A stretch of DNA of 64,000 bases from Alteromonadaceae bacterium BrNp21-10 (GTDB lineage Bacteria > Pseudomonadota > Gammaproteobacteria > Enterobacterales > Alteromonadaceae). This document shows positions 14,129 through 42,156 of this stretch, one piece after another (position 1 is the first letter of the stretch; each line of letters opens with the position of its first letter). The stretch is taken from assembly GCA_030418115.1 (NCBI GenBank), contig JAUHQD010000001.1:372001-436000 (forward strand), written 5' to 3'. A model generated the notes under the pieces. That model made no database searches, was not told where the DNA came from, and was given only the letters and a program-made list of their open reading frames with translations. The position numbers and the translations under genes were made by a program.

Positions 14129-16801
14129 ATGACCAAAACCTTTTTAACATCAACACTTTGTTCTATCTTATTTTTGCTCTTGGGGTGTCAAAACCAGAAT
14201 GATATTTCGACATCGAATACGACAAGTGATGAAGTGAATCAAAGTAGCCAAGTTCATCAGCAGGATGAAGGCGGCGAGGAGCATCACAACGAACATCACG
14301 ATGAACAAATTGAAGGATTACCACCACTAGACTCTCTGGCAACGATGGTTGTGCAAGATGGTTTTAAAATGGAATTGGTGGCTCATGAGCCTATGGTAGA
14401 AGAGCCGGTCTTATTAGCTTTTGATGGCAATGGCCGCATGTACGTAGCTGAAATGCTAACTTATATGCAAGATGCCGATGGCAACGGCCAAATGAATCCT
14501 GTTAGTCGTATCAAGCGCCTTGAAGATACCAACAATGATGGTGTGATGGACAGTTATACTATTTTTGCCGAAAACTTATTGTTGCCACGTATGATTCTGC
14601 CCTTAGGGGACGGAAAAATTATTGCTCGTGAAACCAATACCTTTGATCTGCTATTACTTGAAGACTTAGATGGCGACGGAGTAGCTGAAAAACGTAGTAC
14701 CATTTATAAGGGCGGCCCTAGAGGAGGTAATCTAGAACATCAACCCAATGGACTTATTTGGGGGATTGATAATTGGCTTTATGTTACCTACACCAACAAA
14801 CGTTATCGCATAGAAGGTGACAAAGTTATCGCCCAAGAGACTCGTTATGGTGGTGGTCAATGGGGTTTGGGCCAAGATGAAATGGGTCGATTATATTATT
14901 CAGCTGCGGGTGCAGAAAATCCGGCATTCAGTTTTCAATACCCCAGTGTGTACGGCATGATCCCAGTGGAAGGGGAAACGACCCCTGGCTTTAATGAAGT
15001 ATTTCCAATAGAGATGATTCCAGATGTACAAGGTGGCAGACCAAGGTTACGCGACGACAACACGCTTAACCATTTTACTGGTATTGCCGGTCAAAGCGTT
15101 TATTTAGGCGATAAGTTTCCAGAGATTTACGGCAGTTATATTGCACCAGAACCCGTGGGTAACCTGATCCGCCGAGCCGACATTAAACGTAATGATGGTT
15201 ACACGGTAATTGATCATCCTTATCAAGCACAACGAAAAGAATTTATTGCCTCTACCGACACCGCATTTAGACCGGTTTGGAGTGAAACCGGGCCCGACGG
15301 CACTATTTATGTGGTGGATATGTATCGCGGTATTATTCAAGAAGGCAATTGGACCAAAAAAGGCTCTTTTCTTCGCGAAATGATCGAAAAATTTGGCTTA
15401 GATAAAATTATTGGCCGTGGTCGTATATATCGCATCACCAAAGATGATGTTGACTTGGGTGAGAAGCCCAACATGTACGCACAAACGCCAATGCAACAGC
15501 TTCAATACTTATCTCACGCTAATCAGTGGTGGCGTCTTAATGCGCAGAAATTTATTGTATTAGCGCAAGATAAATCTGTGGTACCAGCACTGAAAAAAAT
15601 GGCCACCAGCCATAACAATCCATTGGCTCGTTTGCACGCATTGTGGACGCTGGAAGGCTTAGGCAGTTTGGACAAAAACTTATTAATTGATAAGTTTTCA
15701 GATGTCGATGAACGTGTTCGTGTGGCTGCGGTGCGCATCTCGGAACAGTTAGTCACTAAAGATGATCAATCTATGCTAGCAGTCTGGCAGTCATTAATTA
15801 GCAATGCCGATTTAGAGTTAACACAGCAGATCTTCTTGTCTAGTTTTTATGTTGATGTTCCAGAGCAAATGAGTAGTAGCATCCGCGATAAGATATTAGC
15901 CAAATATCCCGATAAAAAGGGTATCGCGGCTATTGATAAAGCAATGAGCTATCTAATAAAAGAAAAACAAATTCAAGCCACACTCGCCAAAGGTAATAAA
16001 CAATTAGCCATGTCGGTAGGTCGAGGTAAACAACACTTTGATTCACTTTGTGCTAGTTGTCACGGCCCTGATGGTAAAGGTGCCCCCGCAGGTGACCAAT
16101 TAATCGCCCCATCATTTGAAAAAAATGCACGAATTAATGGTGACCTGTCTATATTAGGGCGCATTGTCTTAGATGGTTTAACTGGCTCGATTGAAGATAA
16201 GAACTATGTAGGCGGCATAATGGCATCGATTGCGTCAAATGATGACCAATGGATCGCCGATGTATTAACCTACATTAGAAATAACTTTGGCAACCAAGCA
16301 TCGATGGTAACACCGGAGCAGATAGCCACACTTAGAACTTTGGATGAGCGCCAGAGTCCTTGGACGTTAACAGAATTGAATCAAACCTTTGCTAACCAGC
16401 TCACTAATAAAACGGAATGGAAATTCAGTGCCAGCCATAATTCGAAGAACTTTGATGCCTTAATTGATGGCAAACCCGGTTGGCCAAAATGGGACAGCGA
16501 GGCGCTGCAAAGTGTTGGTATGTGGTTACAACTGGAGTTACCGCAAACTTATAATATAAGTCGTGTGGAAATGGAGTGCCGTAATTGGGTATGGAATTGT
16601 GCAACGGCGTTTGATTTACAATTTTCAGTTGATGGTGAGAATTGGCAGACCGTTGATAATAATATTCAAAAAGGTGACCAAAGAATCAGTGATACTTTAG
16701 GCCAACCAGCACGTTTTATTAAATTTGTTTTGAAAAACGGCAGTTCAACTCATGCGTGGTCGGTAACCGAACTCGACTTATACGGCAGCCTGCTTAACTA
16801 A
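14129..16801 (+). CDS. PVC-type cytochrome c lipoprotein (dehydrogenase beta-propeller, HEAT-like, CxxCH, discoidin-like)
   Basis: About 890 residues. A lipoprotein signal (FLTSTLCSILFLLLGC) is followed by a His/Glu-rich linker (HQQDEGGEEHHNEHHDEQ), a propeller-type dehydrogenase domain with VAEMLTYMQDADGNG and VDMYRGIIQEGNW, a HEAT-like helical stretch, one cytochrome c site (C641-A-S-C-H), and a C-terminal F5/8-type carbohydrate-binding-like domain. This is the architecture called PVC-type heme-binding protein, abundant in Planctomycetes. I chose the ATG at 14129; a TTG at 14102 would lengthen the n-region. It stands alone, anchored in the envelope, and probably oxidises a sugar or polyol. 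Confidence 0.82.
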   Translation: MTKTFLTSTLCSILFLLLGCQNQNDISTSNTTSDEVNQSSQVHQQDEGGEEHHNEHHDEQIEGLPPLDSLATMVVQDGFKMELVAHEPMVEEPVLLAFDGNGRMYVAEMLTYMQDADGNGQMNPVSRIKRLEDTNNDGVMDSYTIFAENLLLPRMILPLGDGKIIARETNTFDLLLLEDLDGDGVAEKRSTIYKGGPRGGNLEHQPNGLIWGIDNWLYVTYTNKRYRIEGDKVIAQETRYGGGQWGLGQDEMGRLYYSAAGAENPAFSFQYPSVYGMIPVEGETTPGFNEVFPIEMIPDVQGGRPRLRDDNTLNHFTGIAGQSVYLGDKFPEIYGSYIAPEPVGNLIRRADIKRNDGYTVIDHPYQAQRKEFIASTDTAFRPVWSETGPDGTIYVVDMYRGIIQEGNWTKKGSFLREMIEKFGLDKIIGRGRIYRITKDDVDLGEKPNMYAQTPMQQLQYLSHANQWWRLNAQKFIVLAQDKSVVPALKKMATSHNNPLARLHALWTLEGLGSLDKNLLIDKFSDVDERVRVAAVRISEQLVTKDDQSMLAVWQSLISNADLELTQQIFLSSFYVDVPEQMSSSIRDKILAKYPDKKGIAAIDKAMSYLIKEKQIQATLAKGNKQLAMSVGRGKQHFDSLCASCHGPDGKGAPAGDQLIAPSFEKNARINGDLSILGRIVLDGLTGSIEDKNYVGGIMASIASNDDQWIADVLTYIRNNFGNQASMVTPEQIATLRTLDERQSPWTLTELNQTFANQLTNKTEWKFSASHNSKNFDALIDGKPGWPKWDSEALQSVGMWLQLELPQTYNISRVEMECRNWVWNCATAFDLQFSVDGENWQTVDNNIQKGDQRISDTLGQPARFIKFVLKNGSSTHAWSVTELDLYGSLLN

Positions 16802-17002
16802 AATGAATGAGCCAAGGATGGCTATGAAAATAATTCATGATTGACGTCATTTGCCAATCTAGTGGATAGTGTGCCCAAATTATTTGGGCTGCGGAAAATA
16901 GTGGGGCATGGATAGCTTTCCTTTGCTCTCTATTTTTATTTTAATTTCGATAGTGTTGACCTATCCCATTAATGAATAAGTCATACTTCTCAACTGTAAA
17001 AA

Positions 17003-17692
17003 CTAATCACATTCCCGCAAGGCTTTAAGCACTTTAGAATGAAACTCACGATGGTACAGTACTAGTACTACTAACACGGTAGTTGCCATAAATAATCTGG
17101 GATCGATAAACCACGCTAATGTGGATAATGACAAGTAAATGGCGCGTAAACCGTAATTAAATGAATGGCCGGCCTGATCAATTACTTTGGCTGCGCGGTT
17201 AGCGAATTGTAGCAATTTGTCTTGTTCCATTTTATTACCATTGGGAGCCGCGCCCACTAATACACCTGCAAAGCCATATTGGCGTAACGACCAGGTAAAT
17301 TGAAAGAAAGCAAACACGAAAATATAGATCATCAGTAGCACTTTTATTTGAATTTGTTCTGGGCTTTGGGGTAACGAAGGTACGATTTGGTGAATGACTT
17401 GCGACAGCTTATCTGATGAAGATAGCGCCGTTAACAAACCCGCTAATATAAGCAAAGAGCTAGAAGCAAAAAAGCTGATATTACGTTCGAGGGCGGAAAT
17501 AATCGACACATCGGCAATACGGTTATCCCGAGTCATCATTTCTGCCATCCATTGGTCTCGTTTTGAGCGCAATACACTGGCTAAACACACGATTTTACGG
17601 GCTCTACGCTTAGCAAACCACGTATAACCCACCCATAAAAAAATAAACCATGCTAAGCCAATTAAATCGAGAGTTGTCAGTATTGACGTCAT
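17003..17692 (-). CDS. DUF599 family membrane protein
   Basis: A 229-residue inner-membrane protein. Visible are an N-terminal membrane segment (LIGLAWFIFLWVGYTWF), the family-typical stretch RDNRIADVSIISALERNISFFASSSLLILAGLLTAL, and two further hydrophobic segments. DUF599 proteins have no established function. It is convergent with the cytochrome lipoprotein and divergent from dusC. The start ATG at 17692 is the first in the frame. The 200-bp stretch between it and the lipoprotein gene holds a 17-bp palindrome (16873-16889) without a T-run. Confidence 0.85.
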   Translation of the reverse strand: MTSILTTLDLIGLAWFIFLWVGYTWFAKRRARKIVCLASVLRSKRDQWMAEMMTRDNRIADVSIISALERNISFFASSSLLILAGLLTALSSSDKLSQVIHQIVPSLPQSPEQIQIKVLLMIYIFVFAFFQFTWSLRQYGFAGVLVGAAPNGNKMEQDKLLQFANRAAKVIDQAGHSFNYGLRAIYLSLSTLAWFIDPRLFMATTVLVVLVLYHREFHSKVLKALRECD

Positions 17693-17802
17693 GGGGTGTG
17701 GTATTCCTTGTAAGTGATGGTGCAGAATAATGAGGTTACTACTTTTAAGTTATTCATTTTGCTATACTTCGCGCCCTTTTTTAAGTCTCACCTGATGGTT
17801 TT

Positions 17803-18732
17803 ATGCAAATAATTTTGGCGCCGATGGAAGGTGTGGTTGATCACATCATGCGCGACATGTTGACACAAATTGGCGGCTTTGACCTGTGCGTGACCGAATT
17901 TGTACGTGTAGTGGACTTATTACTGCCAGCACGGGTATTTTATCGCCTATGTCCAGAGTTGCATAATGATGGCCGCACGCCAGCAGGAGTGCCGGTTAAA
18001 GTACAATTATTAGGGCAAGAGCCGCAATGTTTGGCCGAAAATGCCGCCAGAGCTATTGAACTGGGTTCTCATGGTGTGGATCTCAATTTTGGCTGTCCTG
18101 CAAAAATGGTCAACAAACATAAAGGTGGCGCAGCGCTGCTAAGAGAAACCGCCGCGTTATTTAATATTATCAGTGTCGTGCGCCAAGCGGTGCCTAAAGA
18201 ACACCCGGTCACCGCTAAAATTCGCTTAGGTTATGAAGATAAATCTTTGGCCATAGATAATGCCTTGGCCATTGAAGCGGCGGGGGCTAGTCAGTTAGTA
18301 GTGCATGCCCGTACCAAAGTGGAAGGTTATAAACCGCCTGCTTATTGGGATTGGATAGATAAAATCCGTCAGCAGGTGAGCATACCGGTTATTGCCAATG
18401 GCGAAATATGGAATTTAGCCGACGCTAAACAATGCCAGCAGCAATCGGGTTGCGACGATTTAATGCTTGGTCGTGGCGTATTGTCGCTGCCTAATTTGGC
18501 TCAAGTGATACGTCAAAAGCAGCAGCCAATGCCATGGGTGCAGATGCAGCAGCAGTTGTCTGCGTATTCTGGTTATGATGTCTTTGGCGATCAAAACCAG
18601 TATTTCCCAAATCGCATTAAACAGTGGTTACGTTATCTCAGCCGCGAGTATCCTCAAGCTCAAGAGATGTTTGCAAAGATCCGTGCACTAAAGAGTGCAG
18701 CTGAAATTCGCCAAATACTTGATCAACAGTGA
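17803..18732 (+). CDS. dusC: tRNA-dihydrouridine(16) synthase DusC
   Basis: A 309-residue flavoprotein that reduces uridine to dihydrouridine in tRNA; the DusC group acts at U16. The N-terminus IILAPMEGVVDHIMRDMLT and the catalytic motif DLNFGCPAKMVNKHKGG (C98) are characteristic, as are HARTKVEGYKPPAYW and IANGEIW in the FMN-binding barrel. Length matches the family. It is monocistronic, with divergent DUF599 upstream and the amidohydrolase pair starting about 100 bp downstream. Confidence 0.95.
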   Translation: MQIILAPMEGVVDHIMRDMLTQIGGFDLCVTEFVRVVDLLLPARVFYRLCPELHNDGRTPAGVPVKVQLLGQEPQCLAENAARAIELGSHGVDLNFGCPAKMVNKHKGGAALLRETAALFNIISVVRQAVPKEHPVTAKIRLGYEDKSLAIDNALAIEAAGASQLVVHARTKVEGYKPPAYWDWIDKIRQQVSIPVIANGEIWNLADAKQCQQQSGCDDLMLGRGVLSLPNLAQVIRQKQQPMPWVQMQQQLSAYSGYDVFGDQNQYFPNRIKQWLRYLSREYPQAQEMFAKIRALKSAAEIRQILDQQ

Positions 18733-18829
18733 TTGTGCCATTAGTCTGATTTACAACGAGTAATTAGGCTGTCTAGAAAACGCTTTGCTCATTTATAAAA
18801 ACAAATCAACAGCCCTATCAAGGATCAAC

Positions 18830-20251
18830 ATGAACCGTAACAAACACATTAAGCGACCGTTGTTGGCGATGCTCTGTGTTGCTGTTAGTACTCTGATTGC
18901 CTGCGGCAGCGAAGAGTCAGCTAAATCACAAGCACCTTTAGTTGAAATCAATAAAAATCCCTTTCCAAGTAGCTATGTACCTTTACCCTCGACCATGACC
19001 TTATTTACCAACGCCAATATTTTGGATGGTGTTGGTGGGCATATTGAAAACGGCAGTGTGTTGATGATGGATGGCAAAATTGCCGCTATCGGCGAAAGTG
19101 TTGATGCTCCAGTCGATGCCCAAGTTATCGATGTAAAGGGCAAGTGGCTAACGCCGGGTATTATCGACGCACATTCCCACTTGGGGGTTTACCCTAATCC
19201 AGCCACCGCGTCTCATGCAGATGGTAACGAAATGACTAAGCCGGTGACGGCGCAAGTGTGGGCTGAGCATTCTGTCTGGCCACAAGACCCGAGTTTTGAT
19301 CGAGCCTTAGCTGGTGGTGTGACGGTATTACAAATTTTACCTGGTTCAGCCAATTTAGTGGGTGGCCGTTCGGTAACAGTAAAGAATTTACCTAATCGCA
19401 CAGTGCAAGACATGAAGTTTCCTGATGCCCCTTATGGTTTGAAAATGGCCTGTGGTGAAAACCCTAAACGAGTTTATGGTAAGAAAGGCGGCCCCAGCAC
19501 TCGAATGGGGAATGTGGCAGGTTATCGTCAAGCATGGGCCGATGCGCAAAATTATCAGCGCAGTTGGGATAAATATTATGCCGACTATAAGGCCGAGAAA
19601 GATCCTAAAGCGCCTAAGCGCGATCTTATGTTGGACACCCTTGCTGGGGTGTTAGCCGGTGATATTTTAGTGCATATGCATTGTTACCGCGCGGACGATA
19701 TGGGCACCATGCTTGATGTAATGAAAGAGTTTAATTATCAGATCACCTCATTCCATCACGCCGTTGAGTCATACAAAATTGCCGATAAATTGGCAGACAA
19801 TAATGTTTGCTCAGCAATGTGGGCCGATTGGTGGGGCTTTAAAATGGAAGCCTATGATGGCATCCGCGAAAATATTCCTATGGTGCATAAAGCGGGCGCT
19901 TGCGCCATTGTGCATTCGGACAGTGATTTAGGCATTCAACGTTTGAACCAAGAAGCCGCCAAAGCCTTGGGTGATGGGCAACGTGCAGGTATCGACATTA
20001 GCAAAGCCGAAGCATGGCAATGGCTGTCGGCCAATCCCGCCAAGTCGCTAGGTATTTTCGATAAAACAGGTTCCTTGGAAGTAGGCAAAAATGCCGATGT
20101 GGTGTTGTGGAGTGCGGATCCGTTTTCTACCTATGCGCAAGCCGAGAAAGTCTACATTGATGGTGGACTCGCTTATGACAGATTGGCCCCAGAAACATGG
20201 CCGGTGAGTGATTTCGAGTTAGGCCAACCCGGCGAAGGAGATGCCAAATGA
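18830..20251 (+). CDS. Secreted amidohydrolase lipoprotein (imidazolonepropionase-like)
   Basis: About 473 residues. An N-terminal lipoprotein signal (MLCVAVSTLIAC) predicts an envelope-anchored protein. The amidohydrolase fold shows the metal site HSHLGV after GIIDAH, then HMHCYRADDM, FHHAVESYK and HSDSDLG, so all expected metal and catalytic ligands are present. I chose the ATG at 18830, which has AAGGA upstream; a TTG reading at 18785 lacks support. It overlaps the next gene by four bases. The substrate (a dipeptide, lactam or cyclic amide) is unknown. Confidence 0.88.
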   Translation: MNRNKHIKRPLLAMLCVAVSTLIACGSEESAKSQAPLVEINKNPFPSSYVPLPSTMTLFTNANILDGVGGHIENGSVLMMDGKIAAIGESVDAPVDAQVIDVKGKWLTPGIIDAHSHLGVYPNPATASHADGNEMTKPVTAQVWAEHSVWPQDPSFDRALAGGVTVLQILPGSANLVGGRSVTVKNLPNRTVQDMKFPDAPYGLKMACGENPKRVYGKKGGPSTRMGNVAGYRQAWADAQNYQRSWDKYYADYKAEKDPKAPKRDLMLDTLAGVLAGDILVHMHCYRADDMGTMLDVMKEFNYQITSFHHAVESYKIADKLADNNVCSAMWADWWGFKMEAYDGIRENIPMVHKAGACAIVHSDSDLGIQRLNQEAAKALGDGQRAGIDISKAEAWQWLSANPAKSLGIFDKTGSLEVGKNADVVLWSADPFSTYAQAEKVYIDGGLAYDRLAPETWPVSDFELGQPGEGDAK

Positions 20252-21537
20252 GACATTTTAAAAGTATGCTTATTATTGGTTTGATGGTGTTTAGCTATTC
20301 AGCCATAGCGCAGAAGCTCGCCATCGTTGGTGGTACGTTGCACACCATGGGTGAACAAGGGTCGCTAACGGATAAAGCTTTACTGATTGATGAAGGGCGA
20401 ATTAAAGGTATTGTCGCTAAAGACAGAGTACCAGCCGGTTATCAACAAATTGATGCCAATGACAAAATTATCACTCCCGGCATTATCGGAGCCCATACAC
20501 ACTTAGGTTTAGTGGAAGTGAGTTCTTCTGCCGGTACAGTGGATGCCACAGCGGATAACGTGGCATTTTCACCTTTAGGGGCGGCGTTAGATGTGTCTTA
20601 CGCTATTAATCCCGATTCTACTTTAATGGCCATTAGCCGTATTGAAGGCGTGACCAGTGCTGCTACTGGGATGTCCAGTACTCATACCTTGTTCCAAGGG
20701 CAGGGCGCAGTTATCAGTTTAGCCGATGTTGCTGAACTGAATTCACCATTGATTAAATCCCAAGCCTTTATGCGACTTAGTCTGAATAACGATGGCGCCG
20801 ATGATAATGGCGGCAGCCGCGCGGCGTTGTGGCCATTATTACTTAGTACTTTAAATGAAGCTCAGCAACGTGATGGCCGCCCAATAAGCACCAATGAAGA
20901 ATGGTTTGGTAATACAGCCAAAGCAGATATAAACGCTTTACTAGGTGTGGAAAATGGCACCGTTCCCTTGGTGATAGAAGTAAATCGTGTTGCCGATATT
21001 CGTCACGTTATTCAGCTAAAACAGCAGCATCAACAACTTAAGCTGGTATTAGTTGGCGCTGCAGAAGCATGGATGGTGGCTACAGCCCTTGCTGAAAATG
21101 ATATTGCGGTGATCCTCGACCCAGAATCCAATATTGCTTATACCTTCGATAGTTTAGGTACCACCTTAGCCAATGCAGGTCGACTCAGCGCCGAAGGGGT
21201 AACAGTAGCGATTGGTGCTAATACCCACAACATTCGTTTAGCTACCCAGCATGCAGGTAATGCAGTGGCTAATGGTCTCGCTTGGATGGATGGCTTAGCC
21301 GCGTTAACTATTAATGTGGCAAAAATTTACGGCATCGATAACGACTATGGCAGTTTAGAAGCAGGTAAAGTGGCCGATGTGGTCATTTGGTCAGCGGATC
21401 CTTTAGAGGTGATGTCAGCGGCAGAGCAGGTGTTTATTCATGGTCAGCCCATTAAAATGCAATCCAGACAAACCAAACTGCGCGACCGTTATATGGCAGA
21501 CATTAAAACCCGCCCTGCACGTTATAATCGTCCTTAG
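20248..21537 (+). CDS. Secreted amidohydrolase paralogue with degenerate metal site
   Basis: A 429-residue protein with a cleavable signal (MLIIGLMVFSYSAIAQ), translationally coupled (ATGA) to the upstream amidohydrolase. It keeps the first metal motif (GAHTHLGLVEVSS) and the C-terminal NAKxxGxxxxxGSLEAGKVADVVIWSADPL pattern. Aligned by eye to its neighbour, FHHAVESYK becomes VLVGAAEAW and HSDSDLG becomes GANTHNI, so later metal ligands are lost. It is probably a non-catalytic partner or a subunit, as seen in some paired amidohydrolases. A bidirectional terminator follows. Confidence 0.85.
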   Translation: MRHFKSMLIIGLMVFSYSAIAQKLAIVGGTLHTMGEQGSLTDKALLIDEGRIKGIVAKDRVPAGYQQIDANDKIITPGIIGAHTHLGLVEVSSSAGTVDATADNVAFSPLGAALDVSYAINPDSTLMAISRIEGVTSAATGMSSTHTLFQGQGAVISLADVAELNSPLIKSQAFMRLSLNNDGADDNGGSRAALWPLLLSTLNEAQQRDGRPISTNEEWFGNTAKADINALLGVENGTVPLVIEVNRVADIRHVIQLKQQHQQLKLVLVGAAEAWMVATALAENDIAVILDPESNIAYTFDSLGTTLANAGRLSAEGVTVAIGANTHNIRLATQHAGNAVANGLAWMDGLAALTINVAKIYGIDNDYGSLEAGKVADVVIWSADPLEVMSAAEQVFIHGQPIKMQSRQTKLRDRYMADIKTRPARYNRP

Positions 21538-32946: not shown

Positions 32947-33215
32947 TACTTCTTATCCTTTTGCTTTGGTTGTGTCACTTTGCCAGATTTTTTATCCACA
33001 TCCACTTGCACTACGCGCCCTGATTTTTGTAACACCTTAACGCGGTACTTATCTTTGTCTTGATTAACTTTAAGTACGCGGCCATTGGTGTCTTTTTTGG
33101 CACGCTCAATGGCCTGTGCTCTGTCGACGGCTTGTTTGTCATCCTCTTTGGCATTAGCACTAAAGCTAAGGCCGAGGATAATCAACAATATGAGTTTTAA
33201 CCTTGTGTTTAACAT
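32946..33215 (-). CDS. PepSY domain periplasmic protein
   Basis: An 89-residue protein with a cleavable signal (LILLIILGLSFSANA) and a single PepSY-like domain (AIERAKKDTNGRVLKVNQDKDKYRVKVLQKSGRVVQVDVDKKSGKVTQ) that is rich in lysine. I chose the ATG at 33215 because an earlier ATG at 33239 would put extra residues ahead of the signal. It is the first gene of the kinase-regulator operon and overlaps the regulator by one base. PepSY domains inhibit proteases or modulate kinases, so it may act as an accessory sensor for this pair. Confidence 0.85.
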   Translation of the reverse strand: MLNTRLKLILLIILGLSFSANAKEDDKQAVDRAQAIERAKKDTNGRVLKVNQDKDKYRVKVLQKSGRVVQVDVDKKSGKVTQPKQKDKK

Positions 33216-34360: not shown

Positions 34361-35146
34361 ATGGCAACGCCATTAAGGAAAAATGATCTACATGGAACTC
34401 CGTATAAAAGACGATCTATTGTTGAAAAAATAATTGATGAATTAGAAGAACTGCCTTTCAATGAGTTGATAAAAAAATGTACCGCTTTTGAAAGGCCAAT
34501 ACCAATAGAGGTGTTGCTGTATTTTCTAAGGAATAAGGCTGAACACTCTAATTCTCCATACTTTAAAAGATTGTTTGAAGCATTCTATACAAGGCTGGAA
34601 CTCAGTGTTACCAAGTCTATTTCTGAAAAACAATATTTGAATGCCCATCATATACGGGAAGAAATTATTGGCAAAGTACTTGAGTTTTTAGTCTTAGATT
34701 GCAGCGGTGAAAATCTAAAATTAGATTATTATGAAGTTAATTTTAACGACGCCCTCCAAAAGTTACGATGGAGTATACTTAGGAAAATAGGACCATCGAG
34801 CGATAAAGATCCTCTCTCTAATTCAGTACCTTTGACAATAGACAATGCAGATGAAAATGAAGTTTCACCTGAGGTAGAAGTTGCTGCTGCGGATTTTTTT
34901 GCTTCTTCAACGACTAAATTAGACGATGAAAATTTCCGGTTTCAATTAAAAGGTGCGATTAATAAACTACCAGATAAAGAACGAAGAGTTATTGGCTTGA
35001 TGTTGCAAGGTATGCAAGTCGAATCAATTGATCCTGAAGTGCCAACAATATCAAAAGCTTTAAACTGCACCGAAAGAACAGTGAGAAACCGTTTAAAAAG
35101 CGCGTATGGTAAATTACAGGAAATACTCCCTGTGGAGGAAAAATAA
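34361..35146 (+). CDS. Sigma-70-like RNA polymerase sigma factor
   Basis: A 261-residue protein. The N-terminal half is an unusual helical region that only loosely resembles sigma region 2 (YFKRLFEAFYTRLELSVTKSISEKQYLNAHHIREEIIGKVLEFLV). The C-terminal 55 residues look like sigma region 4: INKLPDKERRVIGLMLQGMQVESID ... ISKALNCTERTVRNRLKSAYGKLQEIL, with an HTH. AAGGAG precedes the ATG by six bases. It opens a six-gene run, overlapping the next gene by one base, and probably directs or modulates transcription of that cassette. A HTH regulator without true sigma activity is the alternative. Confidence 0.7.
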   Translation: MATPLRKNDLHGTPYKRRSIVEKIIDELEELPFNELIKKCTAFERPIPIEVLLYFLRNKAEHSNSPYFKRLFEAFYTRLELSVTKSISEKQYLNAHHIREEIIGKVLEFLVLDCSGENLKLDYYEVNFNDALQKLRWSILRKIGPSSDKDPLSNSVPLTIDNADENEVSPEVEVAAADFFASSTTKLDDENFRFQLKGAINKLPDKERRVIGLMLQGMQVESIDPEVPTISKALNCTERTVRNRLKSAYGKLQEILPVEEK

Positions 35147-35748
35147 TGACACCAAAATTTGATGAGTCAAAAGAGGACGTATTATGCGCCTTTTCAATTG
35201 AATCAGTTAAAGACAACTTAACACTTAATAAGTACCTGGAAAAATATCCACAGTATCGTGAAGAATTGGTCGATTTATCCATTGATTTGTTTCTATCTCC
35301 TTCCCCTGAAGAAACATTAGAAGGAGAAGAAACAAGTCCAAATGCAGAACTTGCATGGGAAAAATTTCAGACGATGCTTACTCAATCTGTCGAATCGTCA
35401 GAATTCGAAGAGTTGCCAGATCCTTTAACAGAGCTAAATAAACAACAATTCAAAGAGTTAGCTAAGAAGTTAAACCTTAGTAGATTGTTCCTCACCCGCT
35501 TGCGTGATAGAACAATTGTTTATTCAAGCATCCCACAAAAGTTTATTAAAGCACTGTCTAATGCTGTTGGCGTTAGCATGGAGCAAATATCTGCATCATT
35601 AGTAGGTTCTCCAAGGATTTCTGTAGCTGAAAACTTTAAGGCTGATGGAAAACCTTCCGCTTCTTCGCAAATATCATTTGATGAAGCTATTGAAGCATCT
35701 AATTTATCTGAAGTACAAAAAGTATTGTTAAAAAATTATGAGAATTGA
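35146..35748 (+). CDS. HTH-like accessory protein, possible anti-sigma or repressor
   Basis: A 200-residue acidic protein of no named family. The first 90 residues are helical and acidic (LNKYLEKYPQYREELVDLSIDLFLSP ... EETLEGEE). Residues about 105-165 look like a lambda-repressor-type HTH (FKELAKKLNLSRLFLTRLRDRTIVYSSIPQKFIKALSNAVGVSMEQISASL). It begins within the stop of the sigma-like gene, with GGAGG upstream, and ends 3 bp before the ImmA-helicase gene. In other systems ImmA/IrrE peptidases cleave HTH repressors, so this protein is a reasonable substrate for the neighbouring peptidase domain. Confidence 0.6.
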   Translation: MTPKFDESKEDVLCAFSIESVKDNLTLNKYLEKYPQYREELVDLSIDLFLSPSPEETLEGEETSPNAELAWEKFQTMLTQSVESSEFEELPDPLTELNKQQFKELAKKLNLSRLFLTRLRDRTIVYSSIPQKFIKALSNAVGVSMEQISASLVGSPRISVAENFKADGKPSASSQISFDEAIEASNLSEVQKVLLKNYEN

Positions 35749-35751
35749 TAG

Positions 35752-38700
35752 ATGGATGCTATCGAATCAGCAAGGAAGAAAGCAGAACAACTACATTTAG
35801 AAGTAGCTTCAGTTGGTGGAGACATATGTGATCCCCTTAGTTTTGTTCTCATTGAGATTGCTCGACGAGATATAGAGGTAAGTAAAGTCACAATTGATGA
35901 TCCTCAATTGAAGGGAGGCAAAGCTGTATACGATAGCCAAGCGGAAACAATTATCTATTCAAAATCGGATTCTAAATTTGAAGAAGCTTTTCTAATCGCA
36001 CATGAATTAGCTCATATAGTATTAGAAGGAGGAAAGGAAGATTTTGTTTCAGAGAGCGTTGATTTCGAAAGGTCCAGTGAGGAGCCTGCCATTGGAGTTG
36101 AACGGGTGTTGGATTATGGAAGTCATGAGCGCAGAGAAGTCACAATGGACATCTTTGCTAGAGAGTTTCTATTGCCTAGATCTGTTCTGAGAGACTGGTA
36201 TTTAAAAGAAAAACTAAATTCCATCAGCATTTCAAAACGCACATGTGTACCTGTAACCGTCATTCAGCAACAATTGATAGATGCACTACTTTTACCTCCT
36301 CATCAAACGTCAGAAGATAGTGAAGCCAAAAAGTTGGTTAAACCTGATGCATCCCAAAAAATCGCTGCAAGTCACAGAGGATCTCCTTTTCAACTCCAAG
36401 CAGGTCCAGGAACAGGAAAGACAAGTACGCTAGTCCATCGTATTGTTGGTCTTTTAGATGAGGGGGTAGATCCATCGAGTATTTTAGTCCTGACTTTTTC
36501 AAATAAAGCAGCGGGTGAACTTCGAGAGCGAGTTGCTTCCATGCGCCCAGATTCAGTAGCAATGTTGTGGATTGGAACTTTTCACGCTTTTGGCTTGGAT
36601 ATTGTTCACCGTTTTCATCAACTTCTAAGTTATTCTGAAAATCCTTTGGTGATTGGAAAGTTTGATGCAGTTGAGTTACTGGAAAGCGAAATAGCCAAAT
36701 TACAGCTAAAACATTATCGTAACTTTTACGATCCTACCCTTGATTTGAATGATATTCTCAATGCTATATCCAGAGCTAAAGATGAAGTCACTGACTCTAG
36801 TCAATATCAGGATTTGGCCGAAAAAATGTTGGCTAATGCTCAAGACGAGCCGGCACATGAACAAGCCGAAAAGTGTCTTGAAGTGGCCGCTGTGTATAAG
36901 CTATATGAACGCTTACTAAAAGAACGAGATACTGTCGACTTTGGCGATTTGGTTCGTTTGCCGGTTACTCTAATTGAATCAAATAAAGAAGTTAGAGAAT
37001 CGCTTGCTGCGAGACATCAACATGTGTTGGTCGACGAATATCAGGATGTTAATCGTGCATCAGTTCGCTTGTTAAAATCTATTGTTGGACAAGGGGAAAG
37101 GTTATGGGTCGTAGGAGACTCTCGCCAATCAATCTATCGATTTAGGGGAGCCTCATCAATAAACATGCGACGCTTTTCTTCGGACTTTCCTGAAGCTAGA
37201 GCCAAACAATTGGATGTTAACTACCGCTCTCACAAAGAGATTGTTAACTTATTTACCATATTTTCGAATGACATGAAAGCGTCCGAAGGCGCAATACCTC
37301 TCAATCTTGAAGCTCAAAAAGCTAGCTGTGGAGCAATACCCGAGCTTCGAATAGCCAATAATCAAGAAGACGAAATTTCAGCTATTGCCGCTGGAATTGT
37401 AGAACATCATGACCAAGGATTTGATTATGAGCAGCAAGCCGTTTTGTGTACCTCTAATTCGAGACTAGCAGCAATAGCAACAGAACTTGAACAACGAGGC
37501 ATCCCTGTCTTACATTTAGGAAGCTTGTTTGAGCGCGATGAAATTAGAGATTTGCTGTCACTACTATCCTTATTAACTGACAAAAAGGCACTAGGACTAA
37601 TTCGAGCTGCAAATTTTTCTAACATGAACTGTCCACTCGAAGATCTTAAGATTATTAGTCGAGCAATTAGAGAAGCCGATTCCCCTCCAATGGAATGGCT
37701 TGGACTCAGTGAGAAAATGTCAGATCTATCCGATGCTGGCCACGAAGCTCTACTGGAAATTTCAAGAGTACTTGAAGGTTTCAAAAAAACAGATACCCCT
37801 TGGACTGTCTTAGCAACTTTGATTATTGACCGATTACGTTTGGCTGAAAGAATAGCTATTTCTGATAACCTTAAAGATAAAATGCAAGGTGTTGCGATCT
37901 GGCAACTATTGAATTTTTGCCATCAAAAAATTCATGGTAAAGGTCTGTTCATAGATAGATTATTACTTAGAATTAGGCGCATCGTCCAATTGTCTGAGGA
38001 CGGGAGTCTCCGTCAGTTACCAAACTCTGCAAATGCTCTAAAAGGCGTACGTATAATGACAATCCATGCGAGTAAAGGGCTGGAGTTTAAAGTTGTGCAC
38101 ATGCCAGGCCTTGTAACCAATGGGCTACCTGCATCCAACAGATCACCAAGATGCTTACCGCCAGACTCCATGATTGAGGGAACAAATGGAATGACTGGTA
38201 AAGAAGCAATTAAGCTGGGCCATGATGAAGAGGAAGAATGTAAATTTTTTGTCGGTGTTTCGCGAGCTAAAGATAGACTAATGCTTTATGCATATTCAAA
38301 AATGGCGGATGGAAAGAATAGAAGTAAATCCAAGTATATTAGTCGTATCCAAGGCTCACTGAACCAAAACGACAAACCACCATTAAAATTACTCCAAACA
38401 AATACCAGTCAGCAAGTCGTTATGGATATTGCAAGTGATTTAGAAGTAACTGACTCTCAACTTAGCTCGTTTGATCGGTGCCCAAGACGATTCTTTTATT
38501 CTCATGTTTTAGAGTTAGGGGGAAAGCGTATTGAAAGCCCATTCGTTCAAATGCATTCCGTTGTTTATGATGTATTAGACTGGCTAAAAGCGAATGTTGC
38601 CGAATCTAGTCCTTCCATAAGTGATGTGGCTGAGCAATTTGATAAATCATGGCTTATTAAAGGCCCCATAGACCATGGATACTCAGACACATACCGAGAA

Positions 38701-39165
38701 ATTGGCTTTCGATTTGTAGAGTTTTTATTAGAGACTCGTCAAGGCAAAACTTTATTGAAGCCAGAGCCATTAAAGGTAACCTTCCCCGATGGAAACATTG
38801 TTATCCAACCAGATGAGGTTTTTATAGATGATTCGGGTATTCATAAAGTTAGGCGAATACGTTCAGGTAAACTGAGTTCAAAAGAGCATGAGCGGATAGA
38901 GTACTCTGTCCTGTTAGAGGCGGCGGAGCTGCATTATGGTAAAGGAACACAAGTAGAAAGTGTGCATTTAACATGTGAAACGCAGAAGACTATGAAGCTT
39001 AGTGCTAAGCAAAGGCAAGGACGTCTTGATAAATCAGCCAATGTGCTTAAATCTGTTTCGGAAGGTAATTACCCAATATCACCATCCAGTCGAAATTGTC
39101 CTACTTGTCCTAACTTTTTTATCTGTGGTGACGTACCTAAGGGAAAAGTTATTATAAAAATCTAA
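35752..39165 (+). CDS. ImmA/IrrE metallopeptidase - UvrD helicase - PD-(D/E)XK-like fusion
   Basis: A 1137-residue three-part protein. Residues 60-150: ImmA/IrrE peptidase with zinc motif HELAH (84-88) and FAREFLLPRSVL. Residues 200-870: UvrD/Rep helicase with Walker A AGPGTGKT (217-224), VDEYQDVNRA, GDSRQSIYRFRGA, LDVNYRSH, TIHASKGLEFKVVHMPGL and VGVSRAKDRLMLYA. Residues 900-1137: an AddB/Cas4-like domain with a four-Cys iron-sulfur pattern (C910, C1116, C1119, C1125). Where active nucleases have DxK, this one reads RRIRSGK (1034-1040), so the nuclease is probably dead. It lies 3 bp after the HTH gene and 59 bp before the ubiquitin-like gene. Confidence 0.88.
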   Translation: MDAIESARKKAEQLHLEVASVGGDICDPLSFVLIEIARRDIEVSKVTIDDPQLKGGKAVYDSQAETIIYSKSDSKFEEAFLIAHELAHIVLEGGKEDFVSESVDFERSSEEPAIGVERVLDYGSHERREVTMDIFAREFLLPRSVLRDWYLKEKLNSISISKRTCVPVTVIQQQLIDALLLPPHQTSEDSEAKKLVKPDASQKIAASHRGSPFQLQAGPGTGKTSTLVHRIVGLLDEGVDPSSILVLTFSNKAAGELRERVASMRPDSVAMLWIGTFHAFGLDIVHRFHQLLSYSENPLVIGKFDAVELLESEIAKLQLKHYRNFYDPTLDLNDILNAISRAKDEVTDSSQYQDLAEKMLANAQDEPAHEQAEKCLEVAAVYKLYERLLKERDTVDFGDLVRLPVTLIESNKEVRESLAARHQHVLVDEYQDVNRASVRLLKSIVGQGERLWVVGDSRQSIYRFRGASSINMRRFSSDFPEARAKQLDVNYRSHKEIVNLFTIFSNDMKASEGAIPLNLEAQKASCGAIPELRIANNQEDEISAIAAGIVEHHDQGFDYEQQAVLCTSNSRLAAIATELEQRGIPVLHLGSLFERDEIRDLLSLLSLLTDKKALGLIRAANFSNMNCPLEDLKIISRAIREADSPPMEWLGLSEKMSDLSDAGHEALLEISRVLEGFKKTDTPWTVLATLIIDRLRLAERIAISDNLKDKMQGVAIWQLLNFCHQKIHGKGLFIDRLLLRIRRIVQLSEDGSLRQLPNSANALKGVRIMTIHASKGLEFKVVHMPGLVTNGLPASNRSPRCLPPDSMIEGTNGMTGKEAIKLGHDEEEECKFFVGVSRAKDRLMLYAYSKMADGKNRSKSKYISRIQGSLNQNDKPPLKLLQTNTSQQVVMDIASDLEVTDSQLSSFDRCPRRFFYSHVLELGGKRIESPFVQMHSVVYDVLDWLKANVAESSPSISDVAEQFDKSWLIKGPIDHGYSDTYREIGFRFVEFLLETRQGKTLLKPEPLKVTFPDGNIVIQPDEVFIDDSGIHKVRRIRSGKLSSKEHERIEYSVLLEAAELHYGKGTQVESVHLTCETQKTMKLSAKQRQGRLDKSANVLKSVSEGNYPISPSSRNCPTCPNFFICGDVPKGKVIIKI

Positions 39166-39224
39166 TTTTTTCTTTCCGGTTTGAAAATTTATTGCGATTA
39201 ACGTCTTGAAGGGCATAAAACTGC

Positions 39225-40427
39225 ATGTCGCAGTCCGCCACTTTAAGAGAGTTAATAATTATGAGTAATAATAGTTCAACAAATGAATCAGTAATCCCAC
39301 TTGAAGATATTACTGAATGCGTGCGTTTACAGAGACCGCCACGTTTTGCGGACAGCTATCAAGTGTCTATCGCTGATCAAAATTTAACGCAGCAAAGCGT
39401 TTGTATCAGCGACCCAGTTCCAACAGGTCGACAAATACTGGAAGCATCAAATCGTTTCCCTGCCGAAAATTTTATGTTGCTGATGCGCCAAGCATCAGGA
39501 AACGTAGAAGAAATTGGTCTATCAGAAACAGTCAATGTTTATCAACAGGGAGTGGAACAGTTTATTGCTTTTGAAGTTGACAGGCTCTTTTATTTTGAGC
39601 TAAACGGGAGAAGGCTTCCATGGGGCGACAAGTTTATCACTGAGAATATTCTGCGTATCCTTGGTGGCATAGACTCAAATCAGTCTCTTTGGTTAACCGA
39701 TAGAAGCGCTGAAGATAAAATGTTGAATGACGCTGACAAGGTAAATCTCTCTAAAAAAGGGCTGGAGATAATATATTCAAAAGCTATGAGTTGGAAGCTG
39801 AATGTGCATGGGGTAGTTATAACATCGGATACACCAACGATCTTGGCATCCGAAGCTATGATACAGGCTGGATTCGACCCATCAGAAGATTGGAATCTTA
39901 TCCTTAAAGTGAAAGGCCAACCCAAAAAGCCCATTTCTACAGATGATGAAATTGACCTAACTCAGTCAGGTATTGAGAAGTTAAGGCTCATGCGCAAGGA
40001 AATCGTTAATGGAGAAAAACCAATAGACCTGCGTTCTGAGTTTGTGCTCTTAGACAAGGATACTAAGTACTTAAATGCTTTGGAGGTTCATTGGGAAACA
40101 TTGCTGGATGGGTCCAGACGCTGGCTCATTATAAAAGATTTTCAGTTGCCTAATGGCTATAACCAGGAAAAAACGGATATAGCGATCGATATTCCACCAG
40201 CATACCCAGATGCAGCGTTAGATATGTTTTATTGCAATCCACCACTCAATTTGAAGTCGGGAGCAGTAATAGCTCAAACAAATTCTCAACAAGCTATCGC
40301 CGGGAGTTCATATCAGCGCTGGAGTCGACACCTTGCTCCTTCAACACGGTGGAATCCAAAAGTCGACAGCGTGATCACGCAGATGACGGTTGTAGAAGAG
40401 TCATTATTAAGGGAGGTGGGGCAATGA
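39225..40427 (+). CDS. Multi-ubiquitin domain protein fused to E2-like domain
   Basis: A 400-residue protein. Three consecutive beta-grasp-like segments (about 40-118, 121-185, 189-255) match the bacterial multi-ubiquitin pattern, for example LFYFELNGRRLPWGD with KVNLSKKGLEIIYS. The C-terminus (about 265-395) resembles prokaryotic E2 family E: WLIIKDFQLPNGYN, DIAIDIPPAYPDAALDMFYCNPPL and YQRWSRHL. C337 is the only Cys near the active-site position and may or may not be catalytic. No Gly-Gly end is visible on any segment. The start at 39225 (AAGGG upstream) competes with ATG 39261. It overlaps the JAB-E1 gene by four bases. Confidence 0.82.
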   Translation: MSQSATLRELIIMSNNSSTNESVIPLEDITECVRLQRPPRFADSYQVSIADQNLTQQSVCISDPVPTGRQILEASNRFPAENFMLLMRQASGNVEEIGLSETVNVYQQGVEQFIAFEVDRLFYFELNGRRLPWGDKFITENILRILGGIDSNQSLWLTDRSAEDKMLNDADKVNLSKKGLEIIYSKAMSWKLNVHGVVITSDTPTILASEAMIQAGFDPSEDWNLILKVKGQPKKPISTDDEIDLTQSGIEKLRLMRKEIVNGEKPIDLRSEFVLLDKDTKYLNALEVHWETLLDGSRRWLIIKDFQLPNGYNQEKTDIAIDIPPAYPDAALDMFYCNPPLNLKSGAVIAQTNSQQAIAGSSYQRWSRHLAPSTRWNPKVDSVITQMTVVEESLLREVGQ

Positions 40428-41830
40428 AAACATCATCTAGACTTGCAATTTCCAAGCTCCATCACGAGCATTTAAAACACCACCTCTTTCCTGGTGACGG
40501 GCTAGAGGCAGCCGCAATTTTGCTATGTTCTAAAAGCAGTGCTAGTCGATTATTGGTTAAACACGTAAGGCTTGTACCTTATGAATTATGCAAAGAACGG
40601 CTACCCGACAGGATTAATTGGCCAGGTACCGCGATAGAAGAAGCAATAGATGTAGCGGAATCAGAAAATCTGTCGATTATTCTTATTCACTCCCATCCTG
40701 GCGGTATGTTTGATTTTTCAAGTCATGATGATGAAAGTGATCATCAAGTTATTCCGTGCATTTATCAGGCTGTTAGTAAGTCTGGTATTATGCATGGTTC
40801 GGCTATCATGATCGAAGACGGAGCTATACGAGCTCGAATCTATAAAAATAATATGAGTATTGAGCCAGTTAAGTTTGTTACATGTGCATCTGACGACATA
40901 TCACTTTGGTCTCCTTCTGTGCTGGGGACTGTACAAAAAAGGCCAATGACGTTTACCTCTGAAATGCAGCAAGATTTGAATAATCTAACAGCATGTATAG
41001 CTGGCGTATCAGGAACAGGCTCAATTGTTGCCGAGCAACTAGCCCGAATGGGTATTGGGAAGCTGATATTAATTGATTTCGATAAGACAGAATTTAAAAA
41101 CCTCAATCGTATCTTAAATTCAACAATTGAGGACGCAAAATCTGGTCGATTAAAGACTGAAATGCTCGCTTCAAAAATTTTACAATATCGTGATGACATA
41201 GAAATTCAGTGTATCAATTCCAGTATTGGTTGTCGGGAAGCGATCATGGAAACTGGGGATGCTGACGTAATATTCTGTTGTGTCGATAGCTTAGACGGCA
41301 GGCAAATTTGCGATAGAATCAGTTCTGCATTTTTACAGCCTCTTTTAGATGTAGGAGTGACTATTCCTACAAGAAGGACTAATAAAGGTGAGCCGGCCAT
41401 TGCAGACGTCTTAGGTCGGATAGATTACGTTTACCCAGGTAGTTCTACATTGCTCGACCGAGGCGTATATTCTCCTGAGGGGTTACGGAAAGAGTACTTA
41501 AAACTAGTTGCCCCAAAAGACTACGATACTCAGGTTGCTGAGGGATACATAAAAGGTCTTGTGGAAGAAGCTCCTTCGGTTATCACATTGAATATGCGAG
41601 CAGCAAGTTCATGTGTAATGGAGTTTATTGCACGCTGTTATCCATTTAGGCACGAACAGAATGACAAGTTTAACAGGTTGTTTTTTTCTATAGCTGAAAG
41701 TGAAGAGGAATACGACAGACATACTACATCCAATATTTCACAGGATGAGCTACTTGCTCGAGGACTAGAAGAGCCGTTGTTAGGAATGCCTTGTTTTCAC
41801 TCTGAAAAGGTAAAAGGAGAAGCCGCGTGA
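40424..41830 (+). CDS. JAB deubiquitinase - ThiF/E1 adenylyltransferase fusion
   Basis: A 468-residue two-domain protein. The N-terminal JAB/MPN domain has a complete JAMM site: E28, then H89-x-H91-x7-S99-x2-D102 (HSHPGGMFDFSSHD), so it should be an active zinc isopeptidase. The C-terminal ThiF/E1 domain has the nucleotide loop GVSGTGS (194-200), acidic D218/D220 in LIDFDKTEFKNLNR and R/N residues typical of ubiquitin-activating enzymes; I cannot pinpoint the catalytic Cys. The ATG at 40424 overlaps the upstream stop (ATGA) and has GGAGG before it; longer readings run into the previous gene. It overlaps the DUF6527 gene by four bases. Confidence 0.9.
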   Translation: MKTSSRLAISKLHHEHLKHHLFPGDGLEAAAILLCSKSSASRLLVKHVRLVPYELCKERLPDRINWPGTAIEEAIDVAESENLSIILIHSHPGGMFDFSSHDDESDHQVIPCIYQAVSKSGIMHGSAIMIEDGAIRARIYKNNMSIEPVKFVTCASDDISLWSPSVLGTVQKRPMTFTSEMQQDLNNLTACIAGVSGTGSIVAEQLARMGIGKLILIDFDKTEFKNLNRILNSTIEDAKSGRLKTEMLASKILQYRDDIEIQCINSSIGCREAIMETGDADVIFCCVDSLDGRQICDRISSAFLQPLLDVGVTIPTRRTNKGEPAIADVLGRIDYVYPGSSTLLDRGVYSPEGLRKEYLKLVAPKDYDTQVAEGYIKGLVEEAPSVITLNMRAASSCVMEFIARCYPFRHEQNDKFNRLFFSIAESEEEYDRHTTSNISQDELLARGLEEPLLGMPCFHSEKVKGEAA

Positions 41831-42156
41831 AAAAACCAAAGTGGTTTTTAAAATGTATTGAGTTTGTATTACCGACTCGTAAAACATTAGTTGTGGAGGG
41901 TGATTCCCCTCCTAATATTTTGCCTTATCGAAATTTAGTGTTGGCTCGAGAAGGTGGTGAAGACTGGGCTGTCGGGTTCATGTGTCCTTGCGGATGCGGG
42001 AAAAAACTTGAAATTATGCTTATTCAAGAAGTAAAACCTCACTGGAAACTGATGGTCGATCATAGTAATCGACCAACATTACATCCCTCTGTTTGGCTAA
42101 AAACAGGGTGCCAATCACATTTTTGGCTGAGAAATGGTAGAGTGATTTGGTGTTAA
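41827..42156 (+). CDS. DUF6527 zinc-ribbon protein
   Basis: A 109-residue protein matching the DUF6527 type. It has a Cys knuckle MCPCGCGKKLEI (C53, C55, C57), then HPSVWLKTGCQSHFWLRNGRVIW (C95, H98), which together could bind zinc. DUF6527 genes commonly sit next to bacterial ThiF/E1 and E2-like genes. It overlaps the JAB-E1 stop by four bases, so it belongs to the same translation unit and is probably a target-binding or E3-like accessory; that role is inference. Confidence 0.82.
   Translation: MKKPKWFLKCIEFVLPTRKTLVVEGDSPPNILPYRNLVLAREGGEDWAVGFMCPCGCGKKLEIMLIQEVKPHWKLMVDHSNRPTLHPSVWLKTGCQSHFWLRNGRVIWC

Follow-up and report, generated by a model that had tools for sequence, protein, structure and literature searches.

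Genes of the locus and their products

We analyzed a 64,000-nt stretch of the genome of Alteromonadaceae bacterium BrNp21-10 (contig JAUHQD010000001.1), referred to here as the window, which contains a six-gene locus in which a ubiquitin-like (Ubl) conjugation cassette is preceded by three genes, hereafter the triad, that look like its controller. Six open reading frames (ORFs) were confirmed on the + strand within positions 34361-42156, the strand to which all window coordinates below refer. ORFs and Pfam matches agree with a preliminary description of the locus, according to which the products are a sigma-like protein, a helix-turn-helix (HTH)-like protein, an ImmA/IrrE-UvrD-PD-(D/E)XK fusion, a protein with three Ubl stretches and an E2, a JAB-E1 fusion and a DUF6527 protein. 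Neighboring ORFs overlap by 1-4 bases or sit 3 bases apart, and the sole larger gap is 3′ of the helicase gene. The tight packing described earlier thus stands, but the 59-bp length given for this gap probably does not: the Ubl-E2 ORF is open from 39225 (400 aa), but the gene more probably starts at 39261, which widens the gap to about 95 bases; a leader hairpin is predicted whose loop contains the ATG at 39225.

The first gene of the triad (34361..35146) encodes a 261-aa protein, P0001, that looks like a diverged sigma factor, judging from profile matches and from a modeled fold in which a sigma-2-like and a sigma-4-like domain are joined by a flexible linker. The Pfam model of sigma-70 region 4 scores 24.1 bits on P0001, just under its cut-off of 25.7; Sigma70_r4 is matched by 8 of 14 members of the family at E 0.01, and a profile of the P0001 family (A4) matches the FliA sigma factor with E=8e-4. 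Sigma region 2 gave no Pfam match at E 0.01 among the same 14 members. The AlphaFold model (predicted local distance difference test, pLDDT, 83.4) has two helical domains and a low-confidence linker, and all 50 VIA-align rows shown for it (Z 9.1-7.3) are titled sigma factor/RNA polymerase complex or RPSD, RPSB or RPSH models, with a root-mean-square deviation of 4.5 over 140 residues for SigK (4nqw). We take the RPSD, RPSB and RPSH integrative models to be sigma factors, and the chains aligned with P0001 are presumably the sigma subunits. When 295 genomes of the same order were scanned with the P0001 family, 33 matched at E 0.001, two of them strongly, including the window's own genome.

P0002 (35146..35748), a 200-aa protein of XRE type, has a helical domain at its N terminus and, in its tail, a conserved K-x3-KP motif. 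In its model (pLDDT 84.3), the HTH at residues 89-156 resembles NGO0477 (Z 6.4), the N-terminal domain of CapH (7t5u, Z 4.8) and DdrO (Z 4.5-4.6).

P0003 (35752..39165, 1137 aa) is a fusion whose Peptidase_M78, UvrD N/C and PDDEXK_1 matches are all over the Pfam cut-offs. The Peptidase_M78 (IrrE N-terminal-like) match covers residues 55-151 (35914..36204, E=3e-10), the UvrD-type helicase core residues 201-848 (36352..38295, E=6e-64 and 2e-34) and the PD-(D/E)XK_1 domain residues 902-1125 (38455..39126, E=5e-6). P0003 and its aligned relatives all share this M78-UvrD-PD-(D/E)XK fusion, with no stand-alone peptidase among them. In 21 of 21 aligned sequences the M78 site is invariant (H84, E85 and H88 of HExxH, E129 and D133), as are the helicase Walker A, DExQD and QSIYRFRG motifs and the motif VI arginine R838; PcrA is the best Protein Data Bank (PDB) match of the helicase core (E=4e-87). 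Four cysteines of the PD-(D/E)XK domain (C910, C1116, C1119 and C1125), which we take to be of Fe-S type, are likewise invariant in 21/21. The nuclease part is probably dead, because P0003 has R1035 at the position aligned to the catalytic Asp of AdnA, and the residue there is non-acidic in 21/21; although weak (E=0.28), this alignment is anchored by the TG motif that comes directly after, and the position is Asp in 6ppu and Ala in 6ppj, presumably the nuclease-dead AdnA mutant. The PD-(D/E)XK-like part of the preliminary description is therefore upheld as a domain, without the acidic residue at its key catalytic position, and the DNA-sensing role that it gave to the helicase would fit the domains of P0003. 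An active helicase-nuclease effector such as Gabija was considered and rejected: the matches of PADLOC GajB and DRT models are to the UvrD core of P0003, and the nuclease site is non-acidic.

By sequence, P0004-P0006 form a member of the Bub (bacterial ubiquitination-like) cassettes, an already described kind. P0004 (39261..40427, BubA-BubB type) contains three Multi_ubiq stretches and a Prok-E2_E domain in Pfam; it matches best the multi-ubiquitin (BubA) chain 9d59 in the PDB (E=4e-42), as well as Citrobacter BubB and BubA chains, and its Ubl part has a further match in the chain titled Methylobacterium brachiatum Ubl-BilA (8u38, E=5e-18). P0005 (40424..41830, BubCD type, 468 aa from ATG 40424) combines Prok-JAB, a JAMM-type peptidase, with ThiF, the E1 part, and its best PDB match is Citrobacter BubCD 9ea4 (E=1.5e-138), nearly full length at residues 5-458, numbered on a version beginning one codon 5′ of ATG 40424. 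P0006 (41827..42156, 109 aa, GTG start) is a DUF6527 protein (PF20137, E=7e-24), for which we take BubE to be the label; a PDB search with it gave no convincing match (best E 0.04). PADLOC E1-E2 models match the ThiF part alone of the cassette, and Pfam finds no nucleotidyl cyclase among the six genes. The E1, E2, JAB and Ubl content reported earlier is thus correct, but this half of the locus, likened then to sets such as Bil and type II CBASS, is part of the known Bub pathway. Hundreds of Bub operons are known, and a prediction of operons encoding tandem Ubl repeats in bacteria dates from 2006 (PMC1779556, in the portion consulted).

A promoter-like motif within the sigma gene and before the cassette

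The motif TTWCCGG-N15/16-CGATT occurs at two places in the operon. Site 2 (TTTCCGG-N16-CGATT, 34933..34960) is within the sigma gene, about 190 nt 5′ of the HTH gene, and site 3 (TTTCCGG-N15-CGATT, 39173..39199) is in the gap 5′ of the Ubl gene. The strict motif was found in 66 of 82 helicase-Ubl gaps (spacer 16 in 64 and 15 in 2), against 0.0 per set in mononucleotide shuffles. On both strands of 74 loci totaling 1,381,187 bases, there are 114 strict copies: the gap holds 57 and the sigma gene 51, a further 3 lie just 5′ of the sigma gene and 2 just 5′ of a displaced Ubl gene, and 1 is elsewhere. Both main sites are strict in 47/74 loci, and the strict intragenic copy, present in 51/74, is 214-220 nt 5′ of the sigma stop codon in 48 of these 51. 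Relaxing the pattern in 55 non-redundant loci with a gap gives an intragenic site in 49 and a gap site in 51 (45 strict). The motif is absent from the 500 bp upstream of 13/13 cassettes without a triad and present in 3/3 further triad loci. Its asymmetry fits −35/−10 recognition by a sigma factor.

The intragenic copy, with a spacer of 16, overlies sigma codons for [Y/F]-R-x5-A-I, and codon choice there is biased in 55 sigma genes under 80% identity: CGG is used in 47/51 (11.3 expected), GCG in 51/51 (17.1), ATT in 47/54 (15.5) and TAC in 43/43 (24.3), which argues for a constraint at the DNA level beyond the protein. The two sites also covary at the third base (A/A in 35 loci, T/T in 9, T/A in 2 and A/T in 0; Fisher p=5e-8, a statistic that ignores relatedness). 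In Acinetobacter and Kluyvera-type loci, site 2 and site 3 alike have the variant TTACCGA, and locus L113 has the variant TTCCGG...GGAAT both upstream of the sigma gene and in the gap. In two Methylobacterium loci (L095, 14767-16656; L100, 14782-15130), the helicase and Ubl genes lie apart, and the motif starts 78 and 26 nt, respectively, 5′ of the displaced Ubl ORF.

Two further features adjoin these sites. A predicted leader stem-loop (39204..39249) lies between site 3 and the Ubl start, with z=-4.4 in the window and a mean z of -2.9 over 42 loci (mononucleotide shuffles). The stems vary in sequence yet pair (GCCGG/CCGGC, GCCAGG/CCUGGC, GGCGAG/CUCGCC), and the outer stem reaches the ribosome-binding site in some loci; RNAalifold on a gappy alignment of the leaders found no common structure. 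On the 3′ side of site 2, sigma codons 203-213 (34967-34999) are unusual, with CTA at 203, CAA at 207 and AGG at 209. AGG at residue 209 is used in 27/42 (3.5 expected), and a Met codon comes a few codons later in many loci; the AGG, with the in-frame Met, could be an internal ribosome-binding site.

Recurrence of the triad and exchange of cassettes and controllers

The preliminary description proposed that the two halves of the locus would be chance neighbors if they rarely co-occurred elsewhere. The six families recur in the same order both on plasmids and in a genome-wide scan, so this objection fails. A search of plasmids returned 77 records with P0001 and 76 with P0002, and the six-gene order is present on plasmids of Sinorhizobium, Agrobacterium, Acinetobacter, Klebsiella, Mesorhizobium, Rhizobium, Cereibacter and the cyanobacterial Leptolyngbya, in regions read from annotation and supplemented by our own gene search where a gene was unannotated or broken. 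A sigma profile (A1), built from 14 sigma proteins, most from Ubl-linked loci, was scanned over one genome each of 84,980 species and yielded 73 loci, with the HTH gene in 72 and a whole or partial helicase gene in 71. Among the records from the plasmid search, that of P. koreensis has an IS66 insertion 3′ of the helicase gene, and that of Polymorphum stops inside this gene. By their titles, the loci that keep the order of triad and cassette come from Alpha-, Beta- and Gammaproteobacteria, Planctomyces, Terrimicrobiaceae (Verrucomicrobiota) and Myxococcus, in part as metagenome-assembled genomes (MAGs), and the order is also kept on the cyanobacterial plasmid.

At least 2.5 kb of sequence follows the helicase gene in 66 loci, and in 64 of these it includes an E1-like gene belonging to a Ubl cassette, of the DUF6791-E1 type in 56, of the JAB-E1 type in 7 and of the DUF7665 type in one (L113, whose E1-like match, ThiF E=0.01, is below the cut-off). 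This leaves L049 and L081: the cassette has been lost from L049, and the helicase ORF of L081 is shortened (953 aa). In the former (Bradyrhizobium rifense, 14800-20790), the triad and the gap motif are kept, and a metallophosphoesterase gene recognized by Pfam and a large gene that is AAA-like by eye replace the cassette. None of the loci inspected had a free-standing triad with a non-ubiquitin output; A1, built mostly on Ubl-linked sigma proteins, may have missed distant relatives that serve other outputs. In L013 (16060-18994) and L113 (14945-17796), the triad is linked to another gene set, which encodes a small protein, a DUF7665 protein, a protein that resembles JAB but scores below cut-off, and a protein of about 485 aa; we read the last protein as E1-like, with no Pfam match in L013 and ThiF at E=0.01 in L113. 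The JAB-E1 label needs four changes on a tree of the helicase proteins (75 rows, quick method, some long branches), at least three of them forced by well-supported branches, which implies that the triad has switched between cassettes.

Cassettes, in turn, are found with other controllers. Screening 398 genomes of the phylum for DUF6527 gave 18 positives at E 0.001, from which 17 stretches were taken, leaving aside that of the window itself and another from a short contig. Counting the window, 12 loci have a Ubl or E1 gene beside DUF6527: the triad accompanies 4, an HTH gene with an M78 gene 3 (fused in one, below cut-off in another), a CapK+CapS-like pair 1 and a WYL protein 1, and 3 were not assigned. 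Close kin of the window cassette are accompanied by a winged HTH (wHTH) gene and a larger neighbor in Enterobacter (CapK+CapS by our own reading), by HTH+M78 pairs in Bradyrhizobium and Nitratireductor, and by a WYL protein in Synechocystis. Since the CapK-like protein of L018 has no ATPase match in Pfam, we read CapK+CapS in that locus on the basis of gene size and the adjacent wHTH gene; both domains are found in L174. Because related cassettes carry other controllers in its place, the triad looks like an alternative controller of Ubl cassettes. According to the portions consulted of a survey of 544 Bub operons, CapW or CapH+CapP is present at 219 and CapK+CapS at 59, and the triad is not mentioned in those portions (PMC13373217). 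Nor did we recognize the triad and its motif as described in the literature searched, a search that did not extend to Gong 2025 and Ye 2026.

Several observations concern the surroundings of these loci. Two HTH+M78 Ubl loci (L168, 7101-7757; L022, 6856-7503) have an extra gene of 215-219 aa 5′ of the HTH gene, the copies being alike by eye, with no Pfam match for the L168 copy; we tried it as a relative of the sigma factor and found no similarity. In a Sideroxydans MAG (L083, 5007-9822), the triad locus is directly preceded by a second ORF group, whose Ubl, E1 and DUF6527-like matches are weak to moderate. Two rhizobial plasmids (L014, 18596-24552; L015, 18574-24561) carry a PD-(D/E)XK nuclease and UvrD helicase gene pair after the DUF6527 gene, and two contigs from a viral collection (L023, L117) hold pieces of the triad. 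The gene on the right flank of the locus is present in 3 of 40 relatives, its own genome included, and in one genome of the same genus similarity to the window stops near position 33000; no clean empty site was seen among the relatives compared.

A candidate sigma-factor switch, its alternatives and known systems

We propose that the six genes form a single inducible system in which the triad is the switch and the Bub cassette the output, a model that we consider fairly probable. P0001 would direct RNA polymerase to TTWCCGG-N15/16-CGATT as −35 and −10 elements; the gap copy (site 3) would drive the cassette, the intragenic copy (site 2) would drive the HTH and peptidase-helicase genes, and the extra upstream copy present in some lineages would add autoregulation. 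A transcript from site 2 would need a route for translation of the HTH gene, given the overlap of that gene with the sigma stop codon, and an internal ribosome-binding site would permit it. P0002, of the CapH/DdrO fold class, would hold P0001 inactive until, during damage or invasion, the UvrD motor and the nuclease-like domain of P0003 engage single-stranded or broken DNA; this engagement would activate the ImmA/IrrE peptidase, P0002 would be cleaved, P0001 freed and Ubl conjugation switched on. Cleavage of P0002 by P0003 is proposed by analogy, PprI being known to cleave DdrO when stimulated by single-stranded DNA and cleavage of CapH by CapP being also activated by single-stranded DNA (PMC10904395, in the portion consulted). 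The role of P0002 as inhibitor or repressor and as peptidase substrate is likewise a proposal.

The sigma-promoter step is well supported by sequence, through the position and specificity of the motif and the predicted fold; we infer that P0001 itself reads the motif. We also infer inhibition by P0002, its cleavage, the DNA signal, the purpose of the conjugation and an anti-phage function. In its fullest form, the proposal is a self-contained immune switch, in which a helicase-pseudonuclease-protease would sense DNA processing, destroy an HTH inhibitor and free a sigma factor that reads two or three promoters of its own and so turns on the Ubl operon; the sigma codons would themselves contain an additional promoter and perhaps also an internal ribosome-binding site. 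We are evenly divided about this form.

Several points weigh against the model. The tie between P0001 and the motif, the DNA signal, the cleavage and the anti-phage activity are all putative. Foldseek on the P0001 model was not significant (best E 0.025), the evidence for the sigma-2 half is its fold, and VIA-align warns that middling Z values are common for helical models. P0002 is over no Pfam family cut-off and has no significant sequence match to five HTH-bearing proteins of other Ubl loci; its fold match (Z <7) is common to many HTH proteins, with 434 Cro and cyanase, for example, at like Z, and P0002 itself might bind the motif sites. Conservation of the intragenic site is in part protein-driven, since it overlaps conserved residues, and a strict copy is missing in 23/74 loci (some of them near-misses or broken genes). 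Finally, no wider regulon was detected, with 22 loose motif matches in the genome compared to 17 for a reversed control.

The possibility that P0002 binds the motif leads to the alternative that survives best, namely derepression of the CapH+CapP kind, in which P0002 represses at both motif sites, P0003 cleaves P0002 and P0001 is an accessory activator, without any sigma factor. The resemblance of the P0002 HTH to CapH and DdrO and the intact M78 motifs of P0003 are consistent with this explanation, as are the HTH+M78 genes that adjoin related cassettes in our loci and in the portions consulted of PMC13373217. Against it, the VIA-align rows shown for P0001 are sigma or RNA polymerase entries, and P0002 gave no significant match in sequence to the HTH proteins tested. 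Usual XRE operators are palindromic; the motif is not, and −35/−10-like halves at a fixed spacing suit a sigma factor. We consider derepression unlikely.

A second alternative is close to the preliminary description, in which the helicase worked beside a cassette that modifies a target: the helicase protein would be a working partner of the cassette, for instance recruiting the Ubl machinery at invading DNA or being modified by it there, and not mainly a regulator. The near-obligate linkage (64/66 loci) favors such a partnership, and UvrD-type helicases are found in defense systems such as Gabija, whose GajB models in PADLOC match the helicase core. However, in other loci cassettes of the same class have unrelated controllers and lack such a helicase, more than one type of cassette accompanies the triad, the M78 peptidase beside an HTH gene points to regulation, and the nuclease site looks dead. 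The linkage between helicase and Ubl cassette claimed earlier is thus retained, but the triad is better read as a controller of transcription, and we hold a working partnership to be quite improbable.

It is still less probable, and in our opinion hardly credible, that the repeated motif is a recombination site or an RNA element rather than a promoter, with the sigma factor acting elsewhere. In its favor, the HTH and helicase genes have a direct copy on either side, and a predicted leader hairpin adjoins site 3; but in L095 and L100, where the helicase and Ubl genes lie apart, the motif stays with the Ubl gene, and a third copy is present in some loci. The spacers of the two copies within a locus differ in sequence and sometimes in length, for which reason the recombination-site reading was rejected. 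As for two unrelated modules adjacent by chance, nothing was found in favor of this explanation, and it is ruled out for practical purposes by a triad-cassette order that is conserved across phyla.

If the sigma-factor switch is correct, a sigma factor joins the controllers named for Bub operons, and triad-type operons could stay silent in heterologous tests that lack the sigma factor and the trigger. Protection from phages by Bub has so far not been demonstrated, according to the discussion in the portion consulted of PMC13373217. Under the same model, the motif would be a ready reporter for finding the inducer, and the purpose of bacterial Ubl conjugation would become directly testable.

The proposed system shares parts with several known ones. 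It resembles CapH+CapP in having an HTH protein and an ImmA/IrrE-type peptidase beside a Ubl cassette; it differs in that the window adds a sigma factor, that the peptidase is fused to UvrD and PD-(D/E)XK domains, and that the sequence of P0002 does not significantly match any of the HTH proteins tested. PprI/IrrE-DdrO of Deinococcus is a repressor system not known to include a sigma factor. With an M78 peptidase that acts on an HTH repressor and is triggered by single-stranded DNA (PMC10904395, in the portion consulted), it is the model for sensing and cleavage here, but it has no helicase fusion. Pairs of extracytoplasmic function (ECF) sigma and anti-sigma factors are alike in their two-domain sigma-like protein, in the small partner gene adjacent to it and in a −35/−10-like motif with 15-16 nt spacing; P0001, in contrast, is diverged and under the Pfam cut-offs, its partner is an HTH protein, and the proposed release would involve a cytoplasmic M78 peptidase. 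The AddAB/AdnAB helicase-nucleases have in common with P0003 a UvrD-like motor, a C-terminal PD-(D/E)XK domain and four invariant cysteines, to which P0003 adds an N-terminal peptidase, while its catalytic Asp position is non-acidic. With respect to the cassette, P0004 matches the BilA chain 8u38 too, but the BubA chain 9d59 and BubCD match far better than Bil. The closest relative is the Bub system of Citrobacter (BubA/BubB/BubCD; PDB 9ea8, 9eav, 9ea4), which shares the triple Ubl-E2, the JAB-E1 fusion and DUF6527 in one operon, and from which the operon of the window differs by being headed by a sigma-HTH-ImmA/UvrD triad with a conserved promoter-like motif.

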